From Candidatus Tyloplasma litorale (GTDB lineage: Bacteria > Bacillota_I > Bacilli_A > Mycoplasmatales > Hepatoplasmataceae): a stretch of 64,000 nt of DNA. Numbering within the stretch: the first letter of the stretch is position 1; every line of letters begins with the position of its first letter. Shown here piece after piece: positions 5,548-26,143 of the stretch. Under the pieces are notes generated by a model that saw only the letters and a list, made by a program, of their open reading frames with translations, ran no database searches and was not told the origin of the DNA. Where the stretch lies: positions 496,001 to 560,000 of the forward strand of contig AP027078.1 of the NCBI GenBank assembly GCA_027943885.1, written 5' to 3'. The position numbers and the translations under genes were made by a program.

Positions 5548-6627
5548 TTATTTATCATACATTTTAAATTTAAATATTTTTTCTTGGAAAAATGTAAAAA
5601 TTGTTTTATTTGAAAATTTAGATAAAAAACTATTTGTAATACCAATTATTTCATTAAAAAGCATTAAATAATAATTAGGTTCAGTTGGTTTAATGAATGA
5701 ACATTTATTCATAGATTTAATACCTGTCATTAATATTTCATCTTCTATTTTCTCTCTAGGTAATATATACCCAAAATGCATTACTTCATTTCTTAATCTA
5801 TTTATTTTATTAAGTTCTTCTTTAAATTCTTTTATAAATTCTTTTCAATCTTGAGCACAAGAGTTTTTATATCAATTAATAAAATTTTCATTACCAATTA
5901 TGCTTTTAAAGATTTTTTCAGAATCACTATTTTTATTTAAATCTGTTAGTAAAATTATAAGATCATTAAATGTGCAATTATTCAAGATTTTTCAAGATTC
6001 TTTATGATTTTTTTGATAATTATTTTTTATTATTTCTTTTCATTTTTCATCTTTAGATTTATCATTTAGAAAATTTGGAAAGATTGTTTCAAAACTTTTG
6101 GTTTGCGATAATAAAAATGAAGCAACATTTTTTCTTAAGTTTTTTTCAAATCTCATAATAGATGAATAAATAATTTTACAAAAATCATCATTTAAGGCAC
6201 TAAAATAATTAAACATTTGAATATTATAAGTTCTATTTTCTACAGGTTTTAAAATTTCTTTTTTTATAATTTTTGAAACTTCTACATTATGAATTAAGAA
6301 GAAATTTCTGAAATTTAAAATTCTATCAAAATATTGAAATAATTTATCTTCTAAAATAAAATCAATAAATTTAAAGGAATCTAAATTCTTTTTAATTTTC
6401 TTTAAATCTAAAAGTAATTTTTCAAAATTAATATCTTCTTGTTTTGGAAAGAATAAATCATAAAATTGTTTATAATCATATGATTTAATATTCTTTATAA
6501 TTTCTTCCATATGTTTAATTAATTCTGAAATATCTTTTTTTCATTGTTCAATACTAAGATTTGAAAAATCCTTACTTAATTCTTTACTATTCTGTTGTCT
6601 TTTATTTATTTCATGTTCACCATTCAT
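5548..6627 (-). CDS. Abi (Abi_2/AbiD-F)-like HEPN protein
   Basis: 359 residues, Lys/Phe/Asn-rich, predicted cytosolic and alpha-helical. Two segments resemble the abortive-infection Abi_2 family: an N-terminal block ending MRFEKNLRKNVASFLL and a C-terminal block RLRNEVMHFGYIL, where R-N-E-V-M-H fits the HEPN ribonuclease motif R-x4-H. Such proteins in other bacteria stop phage growth by RNA cleavage. The match is by motif only. It is a single gene with its own -10 six bases before the ATG and no ribosome-binding site, and no antitoxin-like partner is adjacent. Confidence 0.5.
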
Positions 6628-6633
6628 AATAAA

Positions 6634-6639
6634 ATTATA
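6634..6639 (-). promoter_or_regulatory. -10 box (TATAAT) 6 nt before the Abi-like ATG
   Basis: TATAAT on the minus strand, ending 6 nt from the start codon at 6627. The transcript would begin at or next to the ATG, so a leaderless mRNA is likely. Confidence 0.5.
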
Positions 6640-6649
6640 TATATTTAAA

Positions 6650-6681
6650 TAAAAAAACAAAGAAACTAAGTTTCTTTGTTT
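6650..6681 (-). terminator. Intrinsic terminator of tuf
   Basis: Nine-bp arms CAAAGAAAC / GTTTCTTTG around a 3-nt loop, followed by seven T on the minus strand, 11 nt after the tuf stop. Confidence 0.95.
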
Positions 6682-6691
6682 ATTAGATCAA

Positions 6692-7876
6692 TTATTCAAT
6701 AATTTCAGTAACTGTTCCAGCACCAACTGTTCTTCCACCTTCTCTAATTGAGAATTTAGTGTTAAGTTCAATTGCAATTGGAGCAATTAATTCAACTGTT
6801 AATGAAACATTATCTCCAGGCATAACCATTTCTACACCTTCTGGTAATGCAATTTGTGCAGTTACATCAGTAGTTCTTAAGTAGATTTGTGGTCTATAAT
6901 TTGAGAAGAAAGGAGTATGTCTTCCACCCTCTTCTTTTGTTAAAGCATAAATTTCAGCTTTGAATTTTTTATGTGGAGTAATTGTTCCTGGTTTAACAAT
7001 AACTTGTCCTCTTTCGATTTGTGTTCTATCCACACCTCTTAATAAAAGTCCAACATTATCTCCAGCTTCTGCATAATCTAGAAGTTTTCTAAACATTTCA
7101 ATTCCAGTTACAGTTGTTTTTCTTGTGTCTTTAAGACCAACAATTTCAACTTCACTACCTTCTTTAATTTGTCCTCTTTCAACTCTACCTGTTGCAACAG
7201 TTCCTCTACCTGTAATTGTAAATACATCTTCAACTGGTAGTAAGAATGGTTTTTCAATATCTCTTTCAGGTACTGGGAAATATTCATCTGCTTGTTTCAT
7301 TAACTCATGAATTTTTTCCTCATAAGTAGGATCACCTTCAAGAGCTTTTAAAGCTGAACCTTTGATAACAGGAGTATTATCTCCATCAAAACCATATTGT
7401 GAAAGTAAATCTCTTACTTCCATTTCTACAAGTTCTAACATTTCTTCATCATCAACCATGTCACATTTATTAATGAAAACTATTAATTTTTTGATTCCAA
7501 CTTGTCTTGATAATAAGATGTGTTCTCTTGTTTGAGGCATAGGCCCATCAGTTGCTGAAACCACAATAATAGCTCCATCCATTTGTGCAGCACCTGTAAT
7601 CATGTTTTTAACATAATCAGCATGCCCTGGTGCATCTATATGTGCGTAATGTCTTTTTTCTGTTTCATATTCAACGTGAGCAGTATTAATTGTAATACCT
7701 CTCTCTTTTTCTTCAGGAGCAGCATCAATTGATGCATAATCCATTGCTTCTGCTCCACCAGCTTTTGCTAAAACTGTTGTAATAGCAGCAGTTAATGTTG
7801 TTTTACCATGATCAACGTGACCAATAGTTCCAATATTAACATGTTCTTTTGAACGGTCAAATTTTTCTTTTGCCAT
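6692..7876 (-). CDS. tuf: Translation elongation factor Tu
   Basis: 394 residues, the standard length. EF-Tu carries aminoacyl-tRNA to the ribosome as a GTP complex. G1 is GHVDHGKTT (residues 18-26), G2 is around [13 protein letters not shown]3 is DAPGHADY and G4 is NKCD. All three domains are intact to the C-terminal [13 protein letters not shown]. It forms a single-gene unit with its own promoter, a good ribosome-binding site (AAAGGAAATAGAT) and a strong terminator, as expected for one of the most abundant proteins. Codon use is less AT-extreme than in the glycan island. Confidence 0.99.
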
Positions 7877-8843: not shown

Positions 8844-9170
8844 TTATATTCATTCTGAAAATCTATATTCCAAAACTTCTATATCTTCATCATCAATACT
8901 TAAATCAGTAAGTCTTGAATATTTTATTCTTGCTTCATTGACAAAAATTGGTGAGTCAGATAAGTCTATTCAAGATCCACAAGCCAATCTATGTTGCATT
9001 CTATTGAGATCATTAGGTTTGTGTTTACTAGTTAATGGCACTACATAACCACAACCATCATCATCTAAAGAAATTATTAAACAAGGTCTTTCATTTTCAT
9101 GTCCAGAATCTATTCCTATCTCCCTATCTAATAAATAAATTATGTCAAATTGTTCTTTTAATTCCACCAT
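8844..9170 (-). CDS. PemK/MazF-like protein
   Basis: 108 residues. The order of segments fits the MazF/PemK beta-barrel fold: an N-terminal strand, then ENERPCLIISLDDDG (equivalent of the E-x-G-x-RP-hLV segment), YVVPLTSK (equivalent of VVPLTS), and a C-terminal SWIDLSDSPIFVNEARIKYS. MazF proteins are sequence-specific mRNA endonucleases. No antitoxin gene is adjacent; the upstream neighbour is the kinase, ending 18 nt earlier, so this may be a domesticated or non-toxic relative. I chose the ATG at 9168-9170 over a TTG two codons earlier. Confidence 0.55.
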
Positions 9171-9187
9171 AAGCAAATTATACTAAA

Positions 9188-9808
9188 TTATTGAATTAAA
9201 GAAATTATCTTTAAAGCAACATCCTTTTGTTTATTATTTAAATTTTTTACAACTTCAACCTTTGGAACAAATTTTTTACAATGATTAATTATTTCTTCAG
9301 AAGCATAAACTTCATCTATTTCTTCAAAATGATCAAGTTGTTTTTCAATAAATCTATTTCTTTTAATTCTTCTTTTTGCAGCATCACCTTTTTCATCTTC
9401 TGTTAAAATAATGATTAAATCATAATTAAAATTTTCACTTACTGATAAGTTTACAAAATTATTAAACAATGATTTATATTCTTCAAAATTTTTTTGTGAT
9501 ATTCAATTTTTTTGAAAAGCTTGTTTTGCATAAATGTAATCATCTATAAAGCTTCTATCAAAAATAATGGCATTTATATTTTCTAATTTTTCTTGATATG
9601 AATAATGTAATGTTCTTAATCTTAACATTAAAAAATCCATTTGCATAATAAATGATCATTTTTTCATATCTTTATAAGCTTTTTCTAAATAAGAATATTT
9701 TTCCTCTTCAACATTAAATTTTAGTTGATTGCCACATATTTTCTTTAATTCATTTAAAATAGTTGTCTTACCAATTCCAGGTGTGCCAATAATAGCTACT
9801 CTTTTCAT
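9188..9808 (-). CDS. Deoxynucleoside kinase (dNK family)
   Basis: 206 residues. It phosphorylates deoxynucleosides for salvage, essential in Mollicutes that cannot make nucleotides de novo. The P-loop is GTPGIGKTT (residues 8-16), the active-site DRS motif is IIFDRSFIDDYIYAK, and the lid arginines are KRRIKRNR. Substrate preference (dA, dG or dC) cannot be read from the sequence. A strong ribosome-binding site AAGGAG lies 8 nt before the ATG. It sits directly downstream of recO (17 nt gap) and is probably co-transcribed with it. Confidence 0.88.
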
Positions 9809-9825
9809 TTTTATTTCTCCTTTAT

Positions 9826-10545
9826 TTAAGTTTTTTCAATTAAAAATAAAGATATTCCTAATTGATTTTCAAAAAACATTTTATACATAGATTTTATTTT
9901 TAATATTTCATTTTGATTCAAATTTAAATTATTACAATATAACGGATCTTTTAATGTATTTATAGTAATTATTTTTCTAAGTGTGGATGGTTCAAGTTCA
10001 TATTTAATAGATTCCTCATGTTTATCACAAATTAATCCACCTTCATATATAGAAAAACCCTTTATATTTTGATTACTTTGACATAAAGCACATTTATCTA
10101 CAATAGGTTTATAACCATTTTGTCTAAGTTTAAGAATTAATAATTCAAAAATGAATTGAAAATTATAAAAATTATTTTCCAAAGAATTTTTTATTTTTTG
10201 AATTGATTTATAAATTTGATTGGAATTATTATTTTGTTGTAATAAAATATTTTTACAAAAATTTAATATATTTATTGAATTATAATTATTTTCATAAATA
10301 AATTCTTTTATTATTCTTGCTGTTTTTAGTCTTCCTGTGTTATTTCTAGAAAATTGGGAAGTAAAATATTCTATTTCTACTTCATTAAAAACACCTAAAG
10401 ACATTCTATTTTTTGAGGAATTTAAATCCAATCCTTTGGCTTTCAATGTAATAACATTGCCACCTTCGCTCAAAATTTTTACAAGATGCTCATCATTAAA
10501 AGAAATTTTTTCTAATACTATAGCTGTAACTATTTTTTCAATCAT
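9826..10545 (-). CDS. recO: DNA repair protein RecO
   Basis: 239 residues, the usual length. RecO binds single-stranded DNA and helps load RecA during gap repair. The N-terminal OB-fold region has the family start (VTAIVLEKISFNDEHLVKILSE), the helical domain follows, and the zinc site is visible as C-A-L-C ... C-D-K-H near residues 155-180. In Bacillus and many Mollicutes recO directly follows era; here era lies 13.9 kb away, beyond the glycan island. The gene is divergent from the UDP-glucose dehydrogenase gene. Confidence 0.92.
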   Translation of the reverse strand: MIEKIVTAIVLEKISFNDEHLVKILSEGGNVITLKAKGLDLNSSKNRMSLGVFNEVEIEYFTSQFSRNNTGRLKTARIIKEFIYENNYNSINILNFCKNILLQQNNNSNQIYKSIQKIKNSLENNFYNFQFIFELLILKLRQNGYKPIVDKCALCQSNQNIKGFSIYEGGLICDKHEESIKYELEPSTLRKIITINTLKDPLYCNNLNLNQNEILKIKSMYKMFFENQLGISLFLIEKT

Positions 10546-10628
10546 AATATTAAAATAATAATATATTATTTAAATTAAAGCATATGAAAATAAATTTACA
10601 TTATCATATATCTTCATAATAAATATAT

Positions 10629-10634
10629 TATAAT
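10629..10634 (+). promoter_or_regulatory. -10 box (TATAAT) for the UDP-glucose dehydrogenase gene
   Basis: TATAAT ends 7 nt before the ATG at 10642, so transcription would start at or next to that codon. Confidence 0.5.
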
Positions 10635-10641
10635 TTTTATT

Positions 10642-11892
10642 ATGTTTAAAGAAGAAGAAAATAATATGAATATTGCAATAGTGGGTGGTGGATATGTAGG
10701 ATTACATACAGCACTTAGATTAAAACAATCTAACAAAAATTGAAATATTGAAGTATTAGATATAGATAAAAATAAAGTTGAAAGATTCAATAAAGGTGAA
10801 TCACCTATTGATGATTTTTTTATGAAAGATTTTATTAAAAAAAATCCTTATAAAATTTCTGAAATAAAATATAAAATTCCCGATGGTGATTGAAATAAAT
10901 ATGATGTAATTTTTATAGGTTTATCAACAAACCCAGCAAATGAAAAAGAGCCAAGATTAAACACTGATTTAATTTTTAAAATTTCAAAAGAAATAAAAAA
11001 TGTGGATAAGAAAATTTCAATTGTTGTAAGATCAACAATTAATATTGATGATTTTCAAAAAATGGAAAATTTAGAAATAAATTATTGACCTGAATTTCTT
11101 TCACAAGGTATTAAAACAGAATTGAATATAAATCAAAATGTAAATGTAGTTGCAATAAATAAAAATGATAATGTTATTGAAAGTTTATTTGATGAAATTT
11201 TTATTAATAAAATTTTGATAAAAACAAATATAAAAGAAGCTATTTTTATTAAAGTTGTTCACAATAGTTTTGATGCCCATTTAATAAATTTAACTAATTT
11301 ATTCGCTAATATAGCAGAAGAAAATAAAATAAATTTTGATATTATTGGACCAGCTGTTGAAACTTTATTGTTAAAAAGAAGTAAGGTTAAAAGATCAGGA
11401 ATAGGATATGGTGGGTCTTGCTATCCAAAAGATTCATATTCTCTTATAGAAATAACTAAAAATAAAAATAATAAAAATTTAATTCAAGCATTAAATGATT
11501 TTAATGAAAATCAATCATTTGCTTTTTTAACAAATGAACCATTAATCAGAAATTCTAAAAAAATTGTTGTTCTTGGTATTTCCTTTAAAGGTGGAACAAA
11601 TGATATAACTAAAACACCAACTGTTTCTTTAAGAAAGTGATTGATGAGAAATAAAATTGATTATAAAATTTGAGAGCCAATGATTGATAAAAAATGAACT
11701 ATGGATTATGAAAAGATTTCTAATAATATTGAAAAGGATATTGAGGAAAGTGATTTAGTTATTGTTGCTTCTGATTGAATTGAATTCAATAACTTACTAA
11801 TTAATTATAGTAACAATGTAATAGATTTAAAATCCTTCATTAAAGAAAATGGAAAAATGAAAATTTATAAAGTAGGAAAAAGTAGAGATTAA
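10642..11892 (+). CDS. UDP-glucose 6-dehydrogenase family protein
   Basis: 416 residues with TGA as Trp, and one of only two + strand genes in the window. It oxidises UDP-glucose to UDP-glucuronate (or a related UDP-sugar) with NAD+. The N-terminal Rossmann motif is IAIVGGGYVGL, the substrate region contains EFLSQGIK, the catalytic cysteine is in GYGGSCYPKDS (about residue 260), and the C-terminal domain begins KIVVLGISFKGGTNDITKTP. The -10 box favours the ATG at 10642; an in-frame ATG at 10666, at the Rossmann strand itself, is the alternative. It converges on the GalE-fusion gene and marks the left border of the glycan island. Confidence 0.9.
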
Positions 11893-11907
11893 TTCTCTAC
11901 TTTTTTT
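11882..11907 (+). terminator. Intrinsic terminator of the UDP-glucose dehydrogenase gene
   Basis: GTAGAGA / TCTCTAC arms around 5 nt, followed by seven T on the + strand. The stem overlaps the stop codon at 11890-11892. Confidence 0.9.
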
Positions 11908-11909
11908 AT

Positions 11910-13958
11910 TTAATTTTTATTGATTTTTTTAAAATCAGATAATATCATTTCTTCTAATGAAAATTTAGGTTTTCAACCATATATTCTTCTTATCTTATCA
12001 GAAGAAGAATATAAAGCATCTGGATCACCTTTACGTCTATCTGCTATTTCTACTTTTATTCTTTTATTGTGAACTTTACAAGCAGCTTCATAAACTTCTT
12101 TTACTGAAAATCCTTTATCAGAAGAAATATTAAATATTTCTGAAGAAGTATTATTCTCAAATATTTTTTCAGTCAATAATAAATGTACATTAGATAAATC
12201 ACAAACATGAACATAGTCTCTTACACAAGTTCCATCTTTTGTTTTATAATCATTTCCAAAAATATAAAATTTTTTTTCATTAATAAAGGCATCATTAATT
12301 AAAGGAATTAAATGAGAAAAGTTTTCTTTAGGATTATATCTAGTTTCTTCAGAACAAGCCCCAGCAACATTAAAATATCTTAAAATAAAATATTTCATTC
12401 CTGAATTAATTATTTCTCTTTCGGCCATTAATTTAGATTTCCCATAAGGGTTTATTGGAGAAGTATTATGATTTTCATAAATTGGTAACTTTGTAGATAT
12501 TCCATATACTGCTGCAGTAGAAGAAAATATAATATTTTTAACATTATATTTTTTAGCTATTTTAATTAAATTTACAGTGCCATTATAATTAACATCAAAA
12601 TATTCTTCTTTTTTTAAAAAAGATTCTGGAACAGAGATCAAACCTGCAAGATGAATTATTAAATCAAATTTTATTTTAGAAAAAATTTCATTTAATTTTT
12701 TTTCATCTCTAATATCACAGGTAAATTTTCTAGAAAAAAATGAATTTTCTTTTTTGAAAGAATTGATATTATTATCTATACCAAAAATTTCATATTCATT
12801 AGTCATTATATAAGCTATATTAGTAGCTATATAACCATCACAACCTGTTATTAAAATTTTCTTTTTATTTGAGATTTGTTTATTATTAAAACATTCTTGT
12901 ATTTTTAAATTAATTAAATTTAAATCATATTCCAATGATTTTAAACTAGTTATTTTAAATAAATCTATTGCTGATTTTAATTCTTTGTTGTATATTTTTT
13001 TAAATGTTTTTTCTAAAATATTAATATAAAAATATCTAAGATAAGTAGTTCCTTCAATTAAGTTTTCTAAATATTGTTTATTTATAATTATTTCCATATT
13101 TTTAAATCTTTTTTCAAAATTATTTTTACTAATTATTTTACTAGAGTTAAATTCTTTAATTATAAGTGAGGAATTATTTCTATGAATATTTGCATTATTA
13201 ATTCTTTCTTTTATATTTGAATTTTTACTAAGAAAGGGATCAAAGAATTCCAATAAATGAGAAGAATCAGGAACAATAATTTCAATATTTAAATTATGAG
13301 AAATAACTAACATAATTATTGAAAAATGATCATAATATGAAGATGCTTGAATTGAATCTAATATTTTGTTCTTTCCTATTAACTTATAAACATTTTCATA
13401 TTCATTTATAAAATTTTTATAAAATATATTTGGAATTGTAAAAATACATTGATTAGTAAAAAATATTTCTTTGCCTTTAAAATTAATAAAATTTAAAATT
13501 TTTTTATCTATATTAGATAAAAAAGAATATTTTTTTCTTTGACCACCATGTAAAACAATTTTTGAATCACTTAATTCCAAATTATTATTAATTATTAAAT
13601 CATTTTCTAAAAAAGTTATAGTTTTATAAGTTTTTTCTTTTAAAATTTCAATTGGTTGATGAAATGAATTTAATATTCCAGTAAATCTAGAATTATTTAA
13701 TTTTATAATTTTCTCAAATAAATCATTTTTTTTATATTCTAAATAGACTATATTATTAACTTTTAATAATTTTTTTTCAATGTCCGATAATTTATCAATT
13801 GGACAATATAAAATCTTAGTAAATATATTTCCATTGGATTTTGTTAAAGAATTAAATGTACCTAATACACCAACTATTTCAGAAAAAACATTATAAAAAT
13901 CACCTAAACTTGATAATGAAATTATTGCTAAATGATTTTCTTTATTTTTTTTAAGCAT
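11910..13958 (-). CDS. Fusion: unknown glycan-locus domain + UDP-glucose 4-epimerase (GalE)
   Basis: 682 residues. Residues about 367-682 are a full short-chain epimerase: nucleotide-binding TGCDGYIATNIA, catalytic SSTAAVYG and Y-G-K-S-K near residue 504, and the GalE-specific RYFNVAGA and GTCVRDYVHVCDL segments. It would interconvert UDP-Glc and UDP-Gal. Residues 1-360 are a domain I do not recognise, with LAIISLSSLG, a FLENDLIIN segment and a Lys/Asn-rich helical tail. The gene 8 nt upstream encodes the same domain alone. GalE is normally a stand-alone protein of about 330 residues, so the fused domain is probably a sugar transferase that uses the product; this is inference. Confidence 0.85.
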
Positions 13959-13966
13959 GTTAAATT

Positions 13967-15040
13967 TTAAATTTGATTTTTAATTTCCTTTATTTTATCA
14001 TTAATTAATTTCAAATCATTTGATAAACAATTTAAACTTTTTTTCTTAAATTTTTTTATTTTAGAATCTAATTTTTTATAATGAGTTTTCTTTAATGGAT
14101 TTTCTAAATAATATATATATAAATTTCTAAGATAAATAGTTCCTTCAGATAACTTACTTAAATAATTTAAATTAGTATAATCTATAGAAATTTTAATTCT
14201 TTTTTCAAAATATTTTTTATCAATCAATTTATTAAAATTAAACTCTTTTAATAAAAGTCCAGAATTATTTCTATGAATGTTAAATTTTTTAATTTCTGTT
14301 GAAATATTTTCATTATTTTTTAAAAAAACATTAAAGTATAATAATAAATTTTCTTCATTTGGCTTTTCTAATTGTAAATTTATTTTACTAGATATTGAAT
14401 GCATAATAACTGAAAAATGATCATAATATGAAGATGGTTTAGAAAAATCTAAAATGTTAAGATTTATTAATCATTTATAAAGTTCTTCATATTCAATTAA
14501 AAATTTTTGATAAAAATTTCCAGGAATAGAAAAAATACATTGAGCAGTAAAAATTAATTTTTCTTCAATAATATTAAAATTTGACAATATTTTTCTATCT
14601 AATTCAGAAAATTTATCATATGATTTTAATCATCCTCCATGTAAAATAATTTTTGAATCACTTAATTCCAAATTATTATTAATTATTAAATCATTTTCTA
14701 AAAAAGTTATAGTTTTATAAGTTTTCTTTTTTAAAATTTCAACTGGTTGATGAAATGAATTTAATATTCCAGTAAATCTAGCATTATTTAATTTCATAAT
14801 TTTTTTGAATAAATCATTTTTTTTATATTCTAAATAAATTATATTATTAATTTTTAATAATTTTTTTTCAATCTTTGATAATTTTTCAATTGGACAATAT
14901 AAAATCTTAGTAAATATATTTCCATTGGATTCTGTTAAAGAATTAAATGTTCCAACTACACCAACTATTTCTGAAAAAGAATTTGCAAATAAACCTAAAG
15001 ATGATAAGGAAATTATTGCTAAATTATCTTTTTTATACAT
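13967..15040 (-). CDS. Stand-alone paralogue of the GalE-fused unknown domain
   Basis: 357 residues in one frame with TGA as Trp. The first 136 residues are nearly identical to the N-terminus of the downstream GalE fusion (shared FTKILYCPI and ITFLENDLIINNNLELSDSK). The rest is clearly homologous but much more diverged (SSYYDHFSVIMHSIS; NIHRNNSGLLLKEFN). I cannot assign a family. The acidic segment inside FLENDLII and the locus context are compatible with a glycosyltransferase. It sits between the GT2-GT8 gene (23 nt upstream) and the fusion gene (8 nt downstream), so all are co-transcribed. Confidence 0.7.
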
Positions 15041-15063
15041 AATATAATAAGTATACTATAAAT

Positions 15064-16779
15064 TTATTTTATATTTTCTTTATATAAAGAAAATTGATTA
15101 CTTCATTTTTTGTAATTTAAAAAATTATTTTCAAATTCTTTTTTTGTTAAATTTCCTTTTTTATTTTTATACATTAACTTCTTATTTTCTTCAATTGAAT
15201 TTCATGGTTTAGCAATTGATAAGAAATGATAAATTTTTAAATTATAATTTTTTGCAAATTCAAAATATTGCTTAGGTCATTTTTCTCTTGCAATATTAAA
15301 ATTAGATAAAAAATCATTTATTTCTAAAGATAGATTTATTATATCTTGATCAGCAAATGAAATATATTTTGAAAATTTATTATAAATTTCAATAAATTTT
15401 TTAGTTGATTCTTCTTCTCTCATTAGTTCTAAATCTAAAAATAAAACTCCTGCATTGTAATATTTACTTAAATTTATATTAGTTTTATTAAATAAATATT
15501 TAGTAATTTTTGAATTTGAATTTCATCTTTGACCATAATGCCCCCTTTCATTTCCTACAAATCTAAAAACTTCTGATATATCACCATCAATTAATAAATC
15601 ATTATCTAAATATAATGTTTTATTAACATATTTAGGTAATAAATCTGCTAAAAATAATCTTATATTAGTTGTTCAAGTAACATGTTTAAGATTAGATTTT
15701 AATTTAGGTAAATCTTTATTAGAAAAAGAAATAACTTCTAAATTTAAATTAGGATTTTTTAATTTTAGTTTTAACACTAAATTTTTTTTAAAATCATCAT
15801 ATTCATCAACAATTAATCAAAATTTTAATTCATTTTCACTATTGATATACATATTAAAAATATTGGAAAGCGCATATTCTATTTGATTATTATCAGTAAC
15901 AAGTGATATATTACAAATTTCATTATTAAATTTAGGATTAGAATAATCAATTGAATATTTAGAATACAATTCATTTCAAATTTTTTCTAATTCCTCATTA
16001 CGATTTTTGTTAAATTGATAATATCTAAATTTTAGACTTTTATAATATTTAAAATTTCCAGGTCAAAAAATAGGTGCCTTTCTTTTTGATTTTTTAACAA
16101 TATTTTCTTGTTCTTCTAAAGTTATTTTTAATTTTTTTAAATAATTAGGAAAATTTTCAACTTTAGATATTCCATATTCATGAATATAAAGATATCAAGA
16201 ATAATCATGATTCATTATTCTAAAATTATTAGCATAACAAATAATTCCTAAAATTTGATCTTCATTAACATCAATTCTTTTTCCTGAAAAAAAATTATCA
16301 TTAAAAATACCTTGAGTAGGCAATATTGTTCAAGATGTTCCTAATGAACTATATCTTTTTTTAGGTAAACTTAAAAATGCTAAATCAATTATTTTTTGAT
16401 TATTAAAAAATAAAAATTTTTTACTTTTAATTCTAATAGAATTCATTCTAATTATTTCTGGTTTTTCAGGCAGAGACATTTTTAATAAATTTTTTATAGA
16501 AATATAATCATCAGGATCCACTGTTTTAAAATACTTAGTTTTAACATTACCTTTTTTTATATGATTGTAAATTGTTAAAAATTTACCTAAATTTTTATCA
16601 TTTATAAATAAATCTTTTGATTCTATTTTATAGAAATTATCTTTTATTTTTGGATTATCTATCAAAAAATGAAATTCTATATTTTTCTTCTTTAATTCTT
16701 TATATGTTTTATATCAATATTTATATTCATTTTCATTAAAAATATAAAAGGTAATTAGCAATGTTATATTTTTATTCAT
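15064..16779 (-). CDS. Two-domain glycosyltransferase (GT2-like + GT8)
   Basis: 571 residues. The N-terminal part (about 1-200) has a GT-A start TLLITFYIFNENEY and a nucleotide-sugar DPDD motif, as in GT2 enzymes. The C-terminal part is a good GT8 match: TLYLDNDLLIDGDI (D-x-D), YYNAGVLFLDL, FADQDIINLSL and KIYHFLSIAKPW. GT8 enzymes often transfer galactose or glucose, fitting the GalE downstream. No membrane segment is visible; it would work at the cytoplasmic face. Its ATG overlaps the stop of the preceding membrane-protein gene by 8 nt, so translation is probably coupled. Confidence 0.82.
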
Positions 16780-19099
16780 CTTTACCCTTTTTTGTTTTTT
16801 CTTTTAATATTGTTCTTAAAATAACTCACATTGTAATTATAAATGAAATGATTATTGGAAGATACATATTGAAAAATCTAGTTGCAAATGAAGTTTGTGA
16901 AGATATATTTTGAATATATGGATCTTGTATAGACATTGAATGTTGAACTGAAAATAACAAGGCATAAACCTGTTTTAATCCAAATTCACTAAATCCTAAA
17001 CCTTTACCGGGTAAAACATTTATTATTGGAACATTATGTATATTGGTCGCCATTAATCTTAATCCAGAAATAGAAATAAAATTTCAATAAATATGTTGAC
17101 TTCAACCACTAGGATATTGATTATTATCTATTATTGCTGTTTCCATCATATTAACAAAAAACATTGATTCTAAAGCTTCAAAAATAATTGGACCTATAAC
17201 TAAAAGAGAAACTCTAAGTGCTCTATCTTTGCTTTTTTTAAAGGTTAATTTATTAGAATTTAAAGTTTTCATGTTGTGATAATTAGTTTCTAATATTATA
17301 GAAGCGTCATTTTTACCACGAATTTTTATTGTTCATTTTAAAAAAAGTATTTGTAAAATAGAAGAAAAAAGTAAAAAATAAACCCAAAAATTATGAATTA
17401 TTTCTCAAGCGAATCCTATTATTGACATAAAGAAAATCAAAATAATATTTCCTAAATTGCCTTCAGAATTAACTGATAAGATAATTAAATAAATAGATCC
17501 AAACATCATAAATATTCCACCAACAAATAGTAAAATAATACCTCTTATTATTGATATAGAACTTATTCCACCAACAATACTATAAGCTTTTACATTTGTA
17601 TTTTTATTTATATATCAACCTCAAATGAACATGGAAATGAAATAATTACCTGTAAAAAAACTAACTGTTTTTCTTAATTGTGATGATACAAAATAAACAA
17701 AAGTTGTTTTTAAATTTATTTTTTTTCTTTTAAAAATTATTTTTTCCATAAAAAAGGCAACAAAAACAGAATAAAAATATGAAAATAAAAAGTTAAGAAT
17801 TATAAAATATATTCAAGGATGATGAAAATTTTGTTTAGAGAAAATCATGTGAAATGACTCTGAAATTTCTTCTGTACCAAGAATATAATTAACTGTAAAA
17901 AATAACAAGAAAGTAAAAAGTAAAAAACCTAATAAAGTTTGAAATAATTTTAATTTATTTAATTTAGGGTTTTGCTGTTTTACTTGATTAATATGATTAA
18001 TAATGTTTTTTACTATTCCTTTTGAAAAAAAATATAAAGAATCCTCTTTATTACTAGATAAATTCATTATTACATTTAAACTATTGTTTGAATTATTAAA
18101 AATTCTTATTTCTCCATAATCTGTATTAATTGAAAATGTACCATCCAAATTATTTTTAGCATCTTGATATTTGATTCCATCAAGTTGATTTTTGTTAATT
18201 AATGCTTTTTTAAATAGTTCATAATAATGTTCATCTTTTAAATCAAATGAAAATTGTTTATATTCAAAAAATGAATTATTAAACATAAAATTTTTAATTA
18301 AAATATTATATTCTAATGATAAAATTTCTAATAATTTTTGATAAAAAATATCTGAACTTATATAATCTTTTTTATAAATAAGTTTTCCATCAATTATTTC
18401 CACAAAATTATTTTGAGAATTTGTTTTAGACAAAATAGTAGGTTTTAAACTATTTTCTATTTTTAATTCTTTTTTATTAATAGAATTAAAAAGTAATTCT
18501 GTTTTTTCAAAATTAACAATTCTAATATTGCCAGAAATTTTTAAAAAAACAGCAGTTGATCCATCTTTATTAATAATAATAGTTTTATCATATTTAAATA
18601 AATTTTTATCATTCTTGATGAATTTATCAATATTCTTAGTTAAACCACTAACATATGAATCAAATTCATATTTATATAATTTTTTTTCGATTGTATTCTT
18701 TATATCTTCATTTTCAAAAAAAATTGCAACTTGCTTTGTTTTTTTTGTTTTTACTTTATTAGAAATATATATTTTATTAATATTTAATTTTTTGGAATTT
18801 GCTATTTTTTTTATATCTGTATAAATAGCAGAAATTTTTTCTTTTTTAATTATTTCTAATATTTCATCCAAATCAACCTTATTTAAAAAATAATTATTAT
18901 TTATTTTTTCTTTTTTATTAGAAAATTTAATAAAAAATGAATTCTTATTATTTTTTATTTTTATTACTTCTTTATTTTCTAAAATTTTTTCATCAGAAAA
19001 TATAAATAATTTATTTTTAGTTGGGTATCCTATAGAATTAATTCTAAAAGGTGGAATAAATTCTTGAAATAAGTTAGTATTTTTTTCAAAAATTAACAT
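16772..19099 (-). CDS. LPG-synthase/YbhN-type membrane protein with large N-terminal domain
   Basis: 775 residues. From about residue 405 on it is a polytopic membrane protein with roughly eight helices; VLPGKGLGFSEFGLKQ near the C-terminus resembles the conserved P-G-G-x-G-x-x-E of the lysylphosphatidylglycerol-synthase transmembrane/YbhN family (flippase-like). The first 400 residues are soluble. Their last part (LDGTFSINTDYGEIRIFNNSNNSLNVIM) looks like the C-terminal domain of phosphohexomutases, and INKDGSTAVFLKISGNIRI could be a decayed version of their D-x-D-x-R metal loop; this is tentative. The likely role is moving or modifying a lipid-linked glycan. A TATAAT lies 6 nt before the ATG. 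Confidence 0.6.
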
Positions 19100-19105
19100 A
19101 TTTAA

Positions 19106-19111
19106 ATTATA
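19106..19111 (-). promoter_or_regulatory. -10-like TATAAT before the membrane-protein gene of the glycan locus
   Basis: TATAAT ends 6 nt before the ATG at 19099, with no ribosome-binding site in between. It could be an internal promoter within the glycan operon; it overlaps the end of the upstream GT2 gene. Confidence 0.35.
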
Positions 19112-19865
19112 TATTATTATTTTTTAAGTTAATTATTTTTAAAAACCTCATTTTATTAACTCTTGTAATTTTAAAACATCAGTTTTTCAAAATACTTTTA
19201 GAATTTAATTTTTTAAAATTTGTTTTTTTGTATATCTTAAAAGGTTCAGAAATATATTTAAGGCGATTATTTCTATTTGAACTAGATATCCCTATTCCAT
19301 AAGTATATTTGTAAAAAGGAAAATTTAAATAACCATTATTTTTAGGCTTAAGGAGAAATATCAATGATAAATCAGACATATAATTAAAAGGAATCTTATC
19401 CAAACTAGATATTAATTTTTTGTTTTTAAAAAATAATTCTGATTTTAAAATGCTATTTGGGTTAAAAACAAAATAAATTCTTTTTGATTTGATTAATTTA
19501 TATTTTTTAGAATTTTTCTTTTCATAAAATGAGTTAATAATTAAGTCTTCATCATTTAATATTAATTGACTATTTAATTTTTCTATTAATTGTCAATCAA
19601 TATTTTTTAATAAAATATCATCTGGATCAATAACTAAAAAATATTTGCTTCTAATTTTATCGAAGGCATCATAAATAGATCAAAATTTGCCTTTATTAAA
19701 AAGATTATTTAATATTTCAATATTTTCATAATTATTTTCAATTTTAAAGTCAACATTGTCATTAATCAAAACAATAAAAACATTACTTTTTTTTGGTAAT
19801 GTTTTAATTAAATTTATCATGTTTTCTTTATTCAAAAAAGTAGGAATAAATATTGTTAAATTCAT
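19107..19865 (-). CDS. Family 2 glycosyltransferase
   Basis: 252 residues with TGA as Trp. The start MNLTIFIPTFLNKENMINLI is the usual GT2 beginning (strand, T-F-N-x-E), VFIVLINDN follows at the second strand, and VIDPDDILL is the D-x-D metal motif. Acceptor and donor are unknown. Its ATG overlaps the licD stop codon by one base (TAATG), so the two are translationally coupled. It stops 7 nt before the next gene. Confidence 0.8.
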
Positions 19866-20722
19866 TATTTTATTAAAAATGGTTTTATTTTATAATTTAT
19901 ATTTTTCTTATTTGGAGTCAAAATTAAATTATGAGGAATTCTTTTTTCTTTGGAAGGCTTTGTTAAATAATTTTTTCCAAATCAAATTTGTAATTCTTTT
20001 TCATAATTATCTGGAACTCTTACATATGTATTTGCAAATTTTATTTTATTATTAAACATGTTTCTTTGATATTGAATTCCTTTATTATTGTAGTTATAGA
20101 ATAATGAATAATACTTACCATTTTTAGACTTTCTTTTTATATATCAATTTTGTAAATAAGGCATTCAAAACGTGGGTATAAATAATATTAATTTTGATAA
20201 AAAAACTAAAAAATTAGTAAATCAATTTATTTTTTTAGCTTTTCCATTCACTCATCCATAATAAGGTAAAATTCTATAAAAATTTCCATATATTCAAACA
20301 TATCTATTAAAAATTCATCATGTATTTCTTTTTATTTTAGTCATTTTTTTAGATTCTAAAGCCAACATTATATCAATAAAAATTGCTGTTATATATTCTT
20401 GACCATTGTATTCAACAATATATTTTTCTTTAGAAAAAATTCTAGCTATATCTAAACCTTTTCTTTTGTTAGGATTAAATAATTCCAAATTCAATTCAGA
20501 ACAAACTTTATTTATTTTATTAAGATTTTGAAAAAAATCAAAACCTATCATAGACATATCAATATCATCATCCCATTGAATTATATTTTGCTCTCTTATA
20601 GCTCCTAACAAAGTACCTGAATTAGCTCATCAAATGATATTTAATTTCTCAAATTTTTCATTTACTTTGTCATAAACATCAATAAGTTTTTTTTGATATT
20701 CTTCAAATGATATTTTTTTCAT
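19865..20722 (-). CDS. licD: LicD-family phosphotransferase
   Basis: 285 residues. LicD/fukutin-type enzymes move phosphocholine, phosphoribitol or phosphoglycerol from a CDP-alcohol onto a glycan. The family signature is strong: WWANSGTLLGAIREQNIIQW followed by DDDIDM near residues 30-55, with the conserved G-T/S-LLGA-R and the acidic D-D-D-I-D cluster. A basic, Trp-rich region follows, typical of the family tail. TagD-type cytidylyltransferase domains two genes upstream would make CDP-glycerol or a similar donor. Start and stop codons overlap those of both neighbours. Confidence 0.88.
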
Positions 20723-21807
20723 TATTTTACTAAAACTCCATTACAACCATATATAAAAAATGATCTATAAATTTTATTATGAAAAGTTTCTAACTTGTCT
20801 CTTCTTCCTCTAACTACATAATAATGTAAATTCATTTGCATTGAATGAGCACCAATAGAAATTCTAATTTTATTATGAGTATTATCTAAAATGAAATCAG
20901 GCTTAAATAAAGAATTGTTAATTATTCTAATTTTTTTTACATTATATATTTGTTTTAAAGTGTATGAAAGATTTTGATCTTTTTCAAATAAATAAATAAC
21001 TAAATCATTATTTTTATTTTCATTAGAAATAAAATTAAATAATTCTTTATTCAAAAAAGAACCTATTTTATTTTGAATATAAATTTTTTTTATATTTTGT
21101 TTTTTTATATTTTTTGTATTTATTCTATTTCAAAAAGTAATAAAATTTTCAATTCATGAAGGGGTTAAAATTGAAAATCTAGAAATAAATTGAATAAATT
21201 TCACAACAAAAATGCTATCAATCCAATTGATTTCATGCTTATGAACAAAATAACTTTTCACTCTTCTTTCATTTCATAAGCTTACTAAATTTCTATTTAA
21301 AATAGTTATACTATTTATGGTTTGTGTTTTTGATTTTTTAGAAAAATAAGGATACATTCTAAAAAATATTTCTGTTCACACAATATTTCCCAAAGGAAAA
21401 AAACAACATTTATCAATGGAATCATAATATTTTAAAACTTCCTTAAGAAAAATGTGATTAGGAACAGATGCAATAATACCCATTGATAAATTATTTTTAT
21501 ATTCATAACCTAAAAATAATTCATTTTCTAAAAGTTTTTCATCTAATTTTTCAAAAGGATCCATATCGGTATCTAAATAAATACCACCTTCTTTATATAA
21601 AATCTCCATTCTAAAGTAATCAGTTAAAAAACTTCATTTTTTTAATTTATATGCTCTTTTTACAAAATCATTTTTTTGAAAATCAAATGAACTTTCATCC
21701 CATATTTTTATCTCATAATCATTATATTTTTCCCAAATTTTTGATTCATATTTTCAATTAATTGGCATATCACCAAATCAAATTATATGTATTTTTTTAC
21801 TTATCAT
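20722..21807 (-). CDS. GT32-family glycosyltransferase with C-terminal extension
   Basis: 361 residues. The N-terminal 220 residues match the GT32 (OCH1-like, capsular) family: KKIHIIWFGDMPI start, ESKIWEKYNDYEIKIWDE, then the D-Y-F-R-M-E-I-L-Y-K-E-GG-IYLDTDMD core with the D-x-D motif, and SMGIIASVPNHIFLKEVL. The C-terminal 110 residues, after a Lys/Ile-rich joint, have no counterpart in the second GT32 gene of the locus. It starts inside the last codons of the TagD-like gene (11-nt overlap) and ends on the licD start (TAATG). Confidence 0.8.
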
Positions 21808-22702
21808 TTTCACTTATTTTCTTTTTTAAAATTGTAGAGGATATATTTTTGGTTCTTTCAATATAATGAACTTCAACAAATTCTTTTAGATAACAAAATT
21901 TATCTTTTCAATCCGTTCCCATAACAAATTTTTTAACTGAATATTTTTTAATATCATCTATTTTTTGTTCTCAACTATGCTCTGGAATAATTAATGTAAC
22001 AAATTCATTTTTAATTAAATTATTGAATCTTGTTTCATAATCATCATAAGATTTTTTGCCTTTTAAATTATTGAATTCATCTGTTGACAATCCTACAATT
22101 AAAAGATCTCCCATTTTTGCAGCTTTTTTTAAAATATTTATATGTCCATGATGAAGTAAATCAAAAGTTCCATAAGTTAAAACAATTTCTGGATTTTTAT
22201 TTTTTATTAAAGTACTTGATATTCTTGAAGTTCTTTCAAAGAACATAATTTTCATTTTTGAACCTTTTGGAGAAATTCTTTTATTTATATATTCTAAATT
22301 TTTAAAATGATCACCACCTTGAACAATTAAATCAACTTTGTATTCATCTCAAATTTCACCTCAAGATTCTTCGGGTTCATTATGATCTTCAAGTATTATT
22401 GTTGCTTTAGGATAGAATTTTTTAAGATTGTTTAATCTTACATCTTCATTTTCTGAACAAATTTTTCCTTTTCTAGAATTCCAACGATCAGAAGAAACAC
22501 CAATAATAACATTTTCCTCTAAACCAGTTAATTCAATGGCTTTATTTATTATATTTTTATGTCCATAATGAAATTTATCAAAAGTACCAAAAGTAATTAT
22601 TCTTTTACCTTTAAAATCCAAATAATTATGTTGTGAAGGTAAAATTCTTTGTTTTAAATTAGATTCTTGTTTTTCTAATTCAATTATCAAATTTTTATTC
22701 AT
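21797..22702 (-). CDS. Tandem two-domain TagD-type cytidylyltransferase
   Basis: 301 residues containing two consecutive nucleotidyltransferase domains. Domain 1: ITFGTFDKFHYGHKNII (about residue 36) and FERTSRISST at its end. Domain 2: LTYGTFDLLHHGHINIL (about residue 168) and IERTKNISSTIL at its end. Both keep the H-x-G-H and the R-T-x-x-I-S-S/T-T motifs of glycerol-3-phosphate cytidylyltransferase, so both look active. TagD is normally a 130-residue single-domain homodimer; here the dimer appears fused. The expected product is CDP-glycerol (or CDP-ribitol/choline), the donor class used by LicD. It has its own TATAAT 6 nt before the ATG. Confidence 0.88.
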
Positions 22703-22708
22703 AAGTTA

Positions 22709-22714
22709 ATTATA
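22709..22714 (-). promoter_or_regulatory. -10-like TATAAT before the double cytidylyltransferase gene
   Basis: TATAAT ends 6 nt before the ATG at 22702. There is no ribosome-binding site, and the preceding gene stops at 22732. Confidence 0.4.
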
Positions 22715-22731
22715 TATTAATATAAAAATAA

Positions 22732-23490
22732 TTAATTTTTATACATTTTATTAATGTAATTTTTCTTTAGTTGTAATTTAGGTCAAAAATAAAATATTCA
22801 ATAACCTTTATTTATGAAAGTTATTTTTTGACTTAAAAATATTACTAATCTTATTGGTTTTCTTAAATTTTTAGGAACTCAAGTAACTTGATGGTTATGA
22901 ATAAAATATTGATTATTTAATATTTTTGTTTTTTTTGATTCTTTTATTAAAGAAAATTTTTCATAATCATAAACAATATATTTATTATTTTCCTTGTATT
23001 TTCCATTTAATTTAAAATTAAATTGTTTTTTTGCAACATAATCTCAAATTATATTTCCAATTATAAAATTTCCCTTTTCATAATTTTCATAAATTTCTTT
23101 TAATTCTTTAAAAAATTTATTTTTAGGAACTGAAGCTGCAAAGCCCATTGATAATGTAACTGTATTTTCAAAACAAAGAATTAATTCTTTATTTTTATTA
23201 ATTAAATGATCAAGATTTTTTAAAATTTTCATATCATGATCAAGATAAATTCCACCCTCTTCATATAATATTTTTAATCTAATATAATCAGATAAAAAGG
23301 ATCATCTTTGTTCTTCATAAGCTTTTTTGACAAAGGGAATTTTATTTAATTCATCTCAATTAAAATCTTCTTCTTTTCAAATTTTTATATCATATTCTGG
23401 AGCAAACTTTTTCATTCTATTATCATCATAAATGAAATTTTCTTTTGTTCCAAATCATATAAAATGGATTTTTTTAGGGATTAAATTCAT
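22732..23490 (-). CDS. GT32-family glycosyltransferase
   Basis: 252 residues. It shares the same core as the second GT32 gene: PKKIHFIWFGT, DYIRLKILYEEGGIYLDHDM and TLSMGFAASVPKNKFF. The metal motif is D-H-D instead of D-T-D, still a D-x-D. It lacks the long C-terminal extension of its paralogue and ends with a basic, aromatic tail that could lie on the membrane. It is the first gene of the minus-strand glycan operon and has an extended -10 seven bases before its ATG. Confidence 0.82.
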
Positions 23491-23497
23491 AATTATA

Positions 23498-23506
23498 ATT
23501 ATACCA
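23498..23506 (-). promoter_or_regulatory. Extended -10 (TGGTATAAT) of the glycan operon
   Basis: TGGTATAAT on the minus strand, 7 nt from the ATG at 23490. This is the same nonamer as at trxB. A leaderless mRNA is likely. Confidence 0.6.
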
Positions 23507-23543
23507 AAAATCTAATTTGTAAAATTTTCTTCCATTTTAGAAT

Positions 23544-23576
23544 AAAAAAAACAAATCCCTGAATGAGAGATTTTGT
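23544..23576 (-). terminator. Intrinsic terminator after the second Abi-like gene
   Basis: A ten-bp stem with one bulged A (ACAAAATCTCT / AGGGATTTGT), a 5-nt loop, then eight T on the minus strand. It separates the era operon from the glycan operon. Confidence 0.85.
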
Positions 23577-23613
23577 ACTTACGTCCTACGACAATAATAT
23601 TATACATAAAAAA

Positions 23614-24435
23614 CTATTTTTCTAATAGAAAATTGATATTAAGTTCTTTTTTTAAAATTCCAAATGGAATTTCATCTTCTTTAAATTCACGTTCAATATA
23701 ATTTATAAGTTTATTTTTAAGATTAAAAAAATCAGCTTTATTTAAAAGAGTTGATATTTCATTAAATATTTCATCAACCATTTGACAAGTTGTTTTTTTA
23801 TCAAGATTAGAATTTATTCTTGGATTAATAGCAACTTCATATATTTTTATTCAAAATTCTTTATTAACAACCAATGAATTATGTGTAATAGAATTACGTA
23901 AATGTCTACATGTTTCAAGAAAATTAAAAAATTCTTCAGAGCTAGACATATTTGTATTTCCCTTTTTATTACTTAAAAATCAAGAAATATTTTCTTCAGA
24001 AATACATTTTAAAAGCATATATTTTTTTCCTAAAGTTCCTCTAATTAAATTTTGAGATAAACTTTTATCAAAATCAACAAAGCTTCTTCCATTTTTTAAA
24101 TTTTTTAATTTATTTTTAGATCCGGTTACATATTTTAAAAGATCTTCATCAGAAATTTTTGATAATTTTTTATTAAAATAAATATTATTTCTAGCTATTA
24201 TTTTAGCTCAAGTATCAATAATTGATTCAGCATTACTAGTTATATAAATTAAATATCTTTTAATTATAAAATTAATTTCTAGTAATCTCTTTAGGGATTC
24301 AGGTTTATGTTCATTCAATAAATCTGGTAGATGTAATGCAATATCCTCCTTAGGAATTAATACATCAATTATTTTATTAATGTAACCCTTTATTGCATTG
24401 TCGCCCTTATTTATAACTTCTTCTAATAACTTCAT
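23614..24435 (-). CDS. Second Abi-like HEPN protein
   Basis: 273 residues, helical, cytosolic. LLEINFIIKRYLIYITSNAE resembles the conserved helix of Abi_2 proteins, and the C-terminal segment TCRHLRNSITHNSLVVN contains R-N-S-I-T-H, a HEPN R-x4-H motif, as in the Abi-like protein at 5548-6627. The two proteins share layout but little sequence. It lies 11 nt after era, so it is probably expressed from the era operon rather than on its own. A role in phage defence is a family-level inference only. Confidence 0.5.
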
Positions 24436-24446
24436 AATGTTTTCCT

Positions 24447-25340
24447 TTAAATATTTTTAATAATTGAATCCTTATTTTTTCAATCCTTTTTAATTTTGAC
24501 AAATGTTTCAAGAAAAACTTTTTTTCCAAAATAATGCTCTAATTCTTCACGTGATTTTTCACCAATAATTTTTATTTTAGAACCATTTTTTCCTATAATT
24601 ATTCTTTTTAAATTATCTCGATCAATTATTATTTCTGCTCTAATAAAAACACTTCTCTTTTTGTTTTCGAATTCTTCAATTGAAACAAATAAATGATGAG
24701 GTATTTCGTTATTTAAATTAAATAAAGCTTTTTCTCTTATTATTTCGGCAGAATAAAATTGATCTGAAAATTCATGAAAACTATCACGATCATAATAAGC
24801 TACATCTTCTTTTAAATCCTTTTTAATTTCCTCCACTAAAACTTTAATATTTGTTTCTCTATAAGAAGAAATTGGTATTATTTTATCAAATAAATTTGTT
24901 TCATTGAATTTCTTAGCAATTTCTAACAATTCTGTTTTAGTTTTTGCTTTGTCAACTTTTGTTAAAAGTAAATATTTTTTAGCTGCTGTTTTTTCAGTTA
25001 TTTTAATAGTTTCCAAATATTCATTATCTAAATCTTTTCAAAAAGGAAGTAAATATAAAATAATATCAACACCTTTTATTGAATCAATAATTCTTTGATA
25101 CATATCTTCATCTAATTTAGTTTTAACATCTATAAATCCTGGAGTATCCATAAAAATTATTTGTGCATCTTCAGAATTCAATATCCCTTTAATTTGATTT
25201 CTAGTTGTGTTTTTTTTATGAGTAGCGATAGATATTTTATGCCCTATAATACAATTTAATAGAGTAGACTTACCAGAATTAGGTTTTCCAACAATTGAAA
25301 CGAAACCTGACTTAATTTTTTTATCATTTTCAATATTCAT
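24447..25340 (-). CDS. era: GTPase Era
   Basis: 297 residues. Era binds the 3' end of 16S rRNA during 30S assembly. G1 is GKPNSGKST (18-26), G3 is DTPGF, G4 lies in LLTKVDKAK, and the C-terminal KH domain contains IIGKNGSKIKIIG. It follows cdd directly (the cdd stop and era ATG touch), in the classical ybeY-dgkA-cdd-era order. RecO, the normal next gene, is missing here and found 13.9 kb further along. Confidence 0.96.
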
Positions 25341-25757
25341 TTATTTTTCAACACCTTCAAATGCCATTGGCAATAATTCTTGAATTAAATATTTTTTAAC
25401 TTCACCTTTTGAGTTATATAAAAATACTTTTGCTTTTCCATTAGAAACTTCATAAATAACTTGTCTACAAACACCACATGGTGGGGTAAATGAATTTTCA
25501 TTTATATTATTTAAATTTCTAGCAAAAACATGAACTTCTTCTAGATCACCAATCTTCATTGAATTTGTTATTGCAGTTGATATTGCATTTCTTTCTGCAC
25601 AAATACCATTTGTTGGTATTTGATATTCAACATTAACTCCTTGATATTCCTTTTTATTTTTGTCAATAACTATTGATGATACTAAAAAATTAGAAGATGA
25701 AGCTTCGGAATTTTTTATTAATTTTGTTAGTTTTTCAAAAATTGTTAATTTATGCAT
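25341..25757 (-). CDS. cdd: Cytidine deaminase
   Basis: 138 residues, normal length. It converts (deoxy)cytidine to (deoxy)uridine in pyrimidine salvage. The zinc ligands and catalytic Glu are in CAERNAIS and PPCGVCRQ. It is embedded in the ybeY-dgkA-cdd-era operon, 14 nt after dgkA. AAGTGAGAT upstream of the ATG serves as ribosome-binding site. Confidence 0.96.
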   Translation of the reverse strand: MHKLTIFEKLTKLIKNSEASSSNFLVSSIVIDKNKKEYQGVNVEYQIPTNGICAERNAISTAITNSMKIGDLEEVHVFARNLNNINENSFTPPCGVCRQVIYEVSNGKAKVFLYNSKGEVKKYLIQELLPMAFEGVEK

Positions 25758-25771
25758 TTTTATCTCACTTC

Positions 25772-26143
25772 CTAAGCAAATAATTCTGATATTTTAGGTA
25801 AAAAAATAATAAGTCCAATAATAATTGCTCCAATAGTAACAACTAAAGTTGCCATTGCTGCTACATCTTTTACTTTTTTTGCCTTAACATTATATTCAAA
25901 AGAAACAATATCCACAATATATTCTATTGCAGTATTAATTATTTCAAAACCTATTACTAATACTATTGAGAATATAATAGCTATTCATTCATAAGCTTCT
26001 ATATCAAAAACAATACCCATGATAATTACAAAAATAGTTGCAAAAAAATGTACTCATAATGATTTTTCTTCCCTAATCATTACAAGCATACCTTTCATAG
26101 CATTAATAAATTTTTTTGATGTTCTTTTAAATCAATTTATCAT
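25772..26143 (-). CDS. dgkA: Diacylglycerol/undecaprenol kinase family protein
   Basis: 123 residues with TGA as Trp. It is a small integral-membrane lipid kinase with three hydrophobic helices. The family signature is visible as IGFEIINTAIEYIVD, with the catalytic Glu and the N-T-A-I-E motif, and the amphipathic N-terminus FKRTSKKFINAMKGM is typical. In Gram-positives it phosphorylates undecaprenol or diacylglycerol; in a wall-less cell diacylglycerol is the likelier substrate. A truncated copy of its N-terminal half lies just upstream. Confidence 0.9.

Follow-up and report, generated by a model that had tools for sequence, protein, structure and literature searches.

A UDP-glucose 4-epimerase joined to an orphan N-terminal domain in a glycan gene run of Candidatus Tyloplasma litorale

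GalE fusions and related systems elsewhere

The α-1,4-galactosyltransferase LgtC, a member of family GT8 (structures 1g9r and 1ga8), uses UDP-Gal as donor. The yeast epimerase-mutarotase GAL10 (1z45), an enzyme of galactose metabolism, carries GalE and a second domain, as does the protein of Candidatus Tyloplasma litorale considered here; in GAL10, however, GalE occupies the N-terminus, its partner is an aldose 1-epimerase and the pathway is galactose catabolism. A mutarotase partner of this kind was rejected for the present protein, as its residues 1–363 gave no Pfam match for aldose 1-epimerase. The capsule pathways of Mycoplasma comprise GalU, GalE and Glf together with a membrane GT2 synthase (PMC11658790). 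Like the present locus, these pathways concern wall-less bacteria, a surface polysaccharide and the step from UDP-Glc to UDP-galactose, but they use separate proteins, with Glf for galactan, whereas here GalE is fused and Glf is absent.

Fusions of GalE to a glycosyltransferase also exist. In G007, a genome from another genus of the same family, a 650 aa protein (L042:5996-7948) consists of GalE followed by a GT2 domain (PF00535, 3.4e-7, over the cut-off), and on a plasmid of Gloeothece verrucosa PCC 7822 a 714 aa ORF (L048:2471-4615) comprises GalE and then a GT2-like half. In both cases, as here, GalE and a glycan-related domain share one polypeptide and have glycan or UDP-galactose genes as neighbours (glf, galU and pgm in G007); GalE is N-terminal there and its partner is a recognizable GT2, whereas here GalE is C-terminal and the partner unrecognized. 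GalE–transferase fusions have probably arisen more than once, and a transferase is therefore the most likely partner here. An earlier note on this DNA had stated that its author knew of no standard family so built. For this particular N-terminal domain the statement stands, and no description of its combination with GalE was found in the literature, but it is too broad for GalE fusions in general, given the two GalE–glycosyltransferase proteins and GAL10. The pairing is new, whilst epimerase–transferase fusions as a kind are already known.

In the PLSDB table only the second half of the Gloeothece verrucosa ORF is listed, the GalE half having no listed gene. The G007 fusion lies in one run (L042:5996-12526) with a GalU-type gene, glf, pgm and a gene for a membrane-like protein, forming a candidate compact galactofuranose transfer operon. 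The same genome encodes a 630 aa protein (L041:13202-15094) with an apparent LicD-like half, seen by eye, and a GT8 domain (PF01501 match); the Hepatoplasmataceae seem to join glycan enzymes often.

The fusion gene, its GalE half and the glycan gene run

Candidatus Tyloplasma litorale Fukuoka2020 (AP027078.1) lives in symbiosis with the isopod Tylos granuliferus (PMC10928387). This wall-less bacterium of a beach isopod has a tiny genome, a single contig of 615,622 bases, in whose genes TGA encodes Trp. Positions given below are those of the window, the whole stretch of 64,000 nucleotides that was analysed, which spans 496,001–560,000 of this contig, and the features at and around the fusion gene are as follows.

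10642–11892, plus strand: nucleotide-sugar (UDP-glucose type) dehydrogenase (TIGR03026, over cut-off), convergent with the operon
11875–11907, no strand assigned: hairpin resembling a two-way terminator, between the fusion gene and the dehydrogenase gene that faces it
11910–13958, minus strand: fusion gene, 682 aa, an ORF under table 4 with one TGA, at codon 662
11931–12860, minus strand: GalE domain, residues 367–676 (TIGR01179, 302 bits; GalE structures in the PDB)
12870–13958, minus strand: orphan N-domain, residues 1–363, without family match and with a homologue in the adjoining gene only
13967–15040, minus strand: stand-alone N-domain copy, 357 aa, with 62 % identity to the N-domain of the fusion
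15064–16779, minus strand: 571 aa protein with a GT8 domain at its end (PF01501, 7.6e-14)
16772–19099, minus strand: 775 aa protein without significant family match in Pfam and NCBIfam scans
19107–19865, minus strand: GT2-like protein, just below the Pfam cut-off (PF00535, 1.2e-4)
19865–20722, minus strand: LicD family protein (PF04991, 1.2e-14)
20722–21813, minus strand: Gly_transf_sug glycosyltransferase (PF04488, 5.6e-11)
21797–22702, minus strand: double glycerol-3-phosphate cytidylyltransferase-type protein (TIGR01518, over cut-off in two stretches)
22732–23490, minus strand: Gly_transf_sug glycosyltransferase, with which the run begins (PF04488, 1e-12)

Under table 11, with TGA read as a stop, the reading frame of the fusion gene ends at codon 662. 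The GalE half exceeds the curated equivalog cut-off of NCBIfam TIGR01179 (262 bits), and the solved structures closest to it are UDP-glucose 4-epimerases (7k3p, 2.6e-61). Its catalytic triad SxT...YxxxK is complete (SST 479–481, Y505 and K509, the last two in YGKSK 505–509). The glycine-rich NAD motif reads GCDGYIA against GxxGxxG, with the third Gly changed to Ala; variants of this kind are known in the SDR superfamily. Identity to the GalE proteins of three relatives was 43–45 %. The fusion carries the sole GalE of the genome, in which GalU was also found, with a score just at its cut-off. By the known pathway the product of the GalE half should be UDP-galactopyranose; galactofuranose was rejected as a product for this genome because Glf, which was sought in the genome, was not found. 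Leu649 appears at a position which we take to be equivalent to Tyr299 of E. coli GalE, so that conversion of UDP-GlcNAc to UDP-GalNAc is possibly a second reaction of the enzyme.

The junction between the two halves contains no in-frame ATG or GTG. TTG 342 is the one start-like codon in frame within codons 331–380, with no AGGA-type, Shine–Dalgarno-like site nearby, so that translation of GalE apart from the N-domain is unlikely. The earlier note's description of the gene proved accurate: an intact GalE forms the C-terminal half of a 682-residue protein, the N-terminal half is unrecognized, and that half also occurs alone in the adjoining gene. There was no sign of separate production of the halves, which the note had named as a finding that would refute its reading.

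The fusion is the last of nine minus-strand genes that run from 23490 to 11910 with intergenic spacings of −17 to 29 bp, most of them of glycosyltransferase, LicD or CDP-glycerol type. The two tandem cytidylyltransferase domains of 21797–22702 form one protein that adjoins LicD, from which glycan decoration of the CDP-glycerol type is likely. The first 280 residues of the protein at 15064–16779 are GT2-like by eye (DPDD motif) without a profile match, and its C-terminal half is GT8; to the eye it looks like a second transferase fusion in the operon. The 775 aa protein has hydrophobic stretches, and in relatives long unmatched proteins also adjoin GT8 or other glycan genes (L041:8613-10511, L044:2404-3798 and L045:14819-16933). 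No Rfam elements were found in 9000–26000.

The N-terminal domain and its twin

Residues 1–363 gave no match in Pfam, NCBIfam or PHROGs. Cutting the domain into pieces produced nothing significant in Pfam, PF00535 (GT2) was found neither in the whole domain nor in the pieces, and PDB sequences gave no meaningful match. No credible relatives were found among the genomes searched from the family (10) and the order (320), in samples of the class (395 genomes) and phylum (392), or in plasmids, phages or IMG/VR, and pattern scans over genome and viral contigs were empty. Two loci from the class and phylum samples (L018 and L019) gave partial matches with E 0.01–0.03. Other weak matches were rejected, one (L017) as an ORF that overlaps the terminal part of an ATP synthase gene and three (L024–L026) as asparaginyl-tRNA synthetase-like ORFs, all named by sequence.

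The stand-alone copy lies upstream of the fusion in the order of transcription, with a gap of 8 bp. The DNA identity of the two copies is 78–95 % over codons 1–140 and 52–78 % beyond, dropping abruptly around codon 140, and the G+C content over the copies falls to 16 %. On the simplest reading of this drop in identity, the 5' part was likely subject to gene conversion or a module was exchanged. The stand-alone protein ends where the fusion enters GalE, so that the fusion would arise if the stop codon separating a tandem N-domain copy from galE were lost. Since a single lost stop suffices between genes a few bases apart, and the fusion has been seen in just one genome, it might have arisen by chance as genes decayed in this very small genome, leaving the halves uncoupled, GalE acting alone and the N-domain a passenger or engaged in an unrelated job. 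Such an accident is very improbable in our view: the N-domain reading frame stays open for 363 codons, its sequence is clearly conserved between the twins, and the independent GalE–transferase fusions elsewhere suggest an advantage.

Four positions of the N-domain bear on its possible function.

13182–13184, minus strand: H259 in the run NIHRNNS, a candidate third metal ligand (motif test; copy comparison)
13326–13334, minus strand: Y209-D210-H211 in the run SSYYDHFS, kept in the diverged half (copy comparison)
13539–13958, minus strand: codons 1–140, near-identical in DNA to the stand-alone copy, likely by gene conversion
13599–13607, minus strand: E118-N119-D120, a candidate metal/donor motif (ExD; sequence and motif test)

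As expected of GT8, the acidic-x-Asp motif (ITFLEND, with E118 and D120) follows a strand and stands about 100 residues from the start of the domain; by itself such a motif arises in about 5 % of shuffles. From ExD the distances to DH and to the His are 90 and 139 residues in the N-domain and 83 and 139 in LgtC (D105 to D188 and D105 to H244, numbered from the alignment), and the GT8 His ligand lies about 125–140 residues after DxD. The acidic-x-Asp, Asp-Gln/His and His positions thus occur in the same order and with similar spacing as in LgtC, but the N-domain has ExD for DxD, lacks KPW after H259 and has no similarity to LgtC at profile level. Of 160 local proteins, only the two N-domain copies and two stand-alone GT8 proteins carried the combined ExD...DH...H pattern, which was composed after inspection of the sequences; for either copy, 5000 shuffles did not yield it once. 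SSYYDHFS and NIHRNNS are the sole identical runs of ≥ 5 residues in the diverged half of the copies, two runs of such length being found in about 6 % of shuffles. Conservation of ExD between the copies says little because it falls in the gene-converted part. Taken as a whole, the layout (ExD, D210-H211 and H259) is suggestively LgtC-like and partly kept between the diverged halves. Membership of GT8 is not claimed, as the profile tests failed: the N-domain, whole or in pieces, did not match PF01501, hhalign against GT8 gave E 0.11 on 30 unrelated columns, and alignment to the GT8 profile carried no signal relative to shuffles (Z 0.4).

Two AlphaFold runs with two-row alignments gave models of too low confidence to decide the fold (pLDDT 44.3 and 39.9); their secondary structure suggests an N-terminal part of alpha/beta type and, towards the C-terminus, a helical part with long helices. 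Foldseek and VIA-align matches to such models (translation-factor fragments, PII-like proteins and helical bundles) are not meaningful, and the absence of a glycosyltransferase among the structural matches listed is uninformative at this pLDDT. The secondary structure, the place of the domain in the glycan gene run and the missing GT-A profile match would suit a transferase of the glycan pathway that is not GT-A (GT-B-like, phospho-, acyl- or other) and uses or modifies the galactosylated product. We consider such an enzyme unlikely, given the LgtC-like motif layout with its conserved His run and the fact that relatives join GalE to GT2, a GT-A family. The long C-terminal helices of an otherwise poor model and the failure to match any enzyme family would also fit a non-enzymatic domain that, by binding the acceptor, the membrane or partner proteins, holds GalE in place within a complex for glycan synthesis, the twin serving another enzyme likewise; this seems quite improbable, as the best-kept runs of the diverged half (YYDH and NIHRNN) are polar, acidic and His-rich and resemble an active site more than a scaffold.

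Proposed function and setting of the cluster

Our best guess, held with slightly more belief than doubt, is that the fusion is a bifunctional surface-glycan enzyme in which GalE is combined with a diverged GT-A-type galactosyltransferase. GalU, encoded elsewhere in the genome, would supply UDP-Glc, which the C-terminal GalE would convert to UDP-Gal; the N-domain, as a very diverged GT-A-type glycosyltransferase with a motif layout closest to that of LgtC/GT8, would then transfer galactose onto an acceptor, either a glycan or a glycolipid. The stand-alone copy would share this donor but serve another acceptor, because the two copies have a common donor-side half with ExD and differ elsewhere. 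The fusion, the identity of its GalE as the sole one of the genome, GalU without Glf, the tandem copy and the gene run are observed, and from them we infer transferase activity, galactose as the sugar, a local supply of UDP-Gal or its channelling from GalE to the N-domain, and the roles of the two halves.

The transferase role itself is proposed with moderate confidence. For the bifunctional enzyme as a whole speak the GalE match with its catalytic residues, the single GalE of the genome with GalU present and Glf absent, the nine-gene run, the GalE–GT2 fusions, the LgtC-like layout with its two conserved runs and the missing internal start for GalE; against it speak the lack of any significant resemblance to glycosyltransferases in profile or sequence comparisons, the GT8 Z-score of 0.4, the poor AlphaFold models, the composition of the motif pattern after inspection, the place of ExD in the gene-converted part and the missing KPW. 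The ‘probable transferase’ of the earlier note is plausible by motif spacing, glycan operon and the GalE–GT2 fusion of a relative, but no significant profile backs it and the structure models are of low confidence. A more tentative idea, possible though somewhat doubtful, is that the N-domain is the founding member of a new family of glycosyltransferases, to date seen in Tyloplasma litorale only and fused to the epimerase supplying its donor; gene conversion would keep the donor halves of the tandem copies similar, and the acceptor halves would diverge.

If the proposed function is correct, a transferase family that current profiles miss would be added, and very small genomes would repeatedly couple the synthesis of UDP-galactose to its use. 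The surface-glycan genes of mollicute symbionts would be under-annotated, since half of the fusion and the whole of its twin would count as hypothetical. The fusion would also permit a direct test of donor channelling, with the halves joined or separated.

The genes era and recO-like are neighbours in three relatives (G009, G007 and G004; L038, L039 and L040), whereas here they are 13.9 kb apart (10546–24446), the glycan cluster between them having been either inserted here or lost in the three relatives. By eye, the proteins of 5548–6786 and 23614–24435 resemble Abi/HEPN proteins in their RLRNEVMHF-like and RHLRNSITHN-like stretches.
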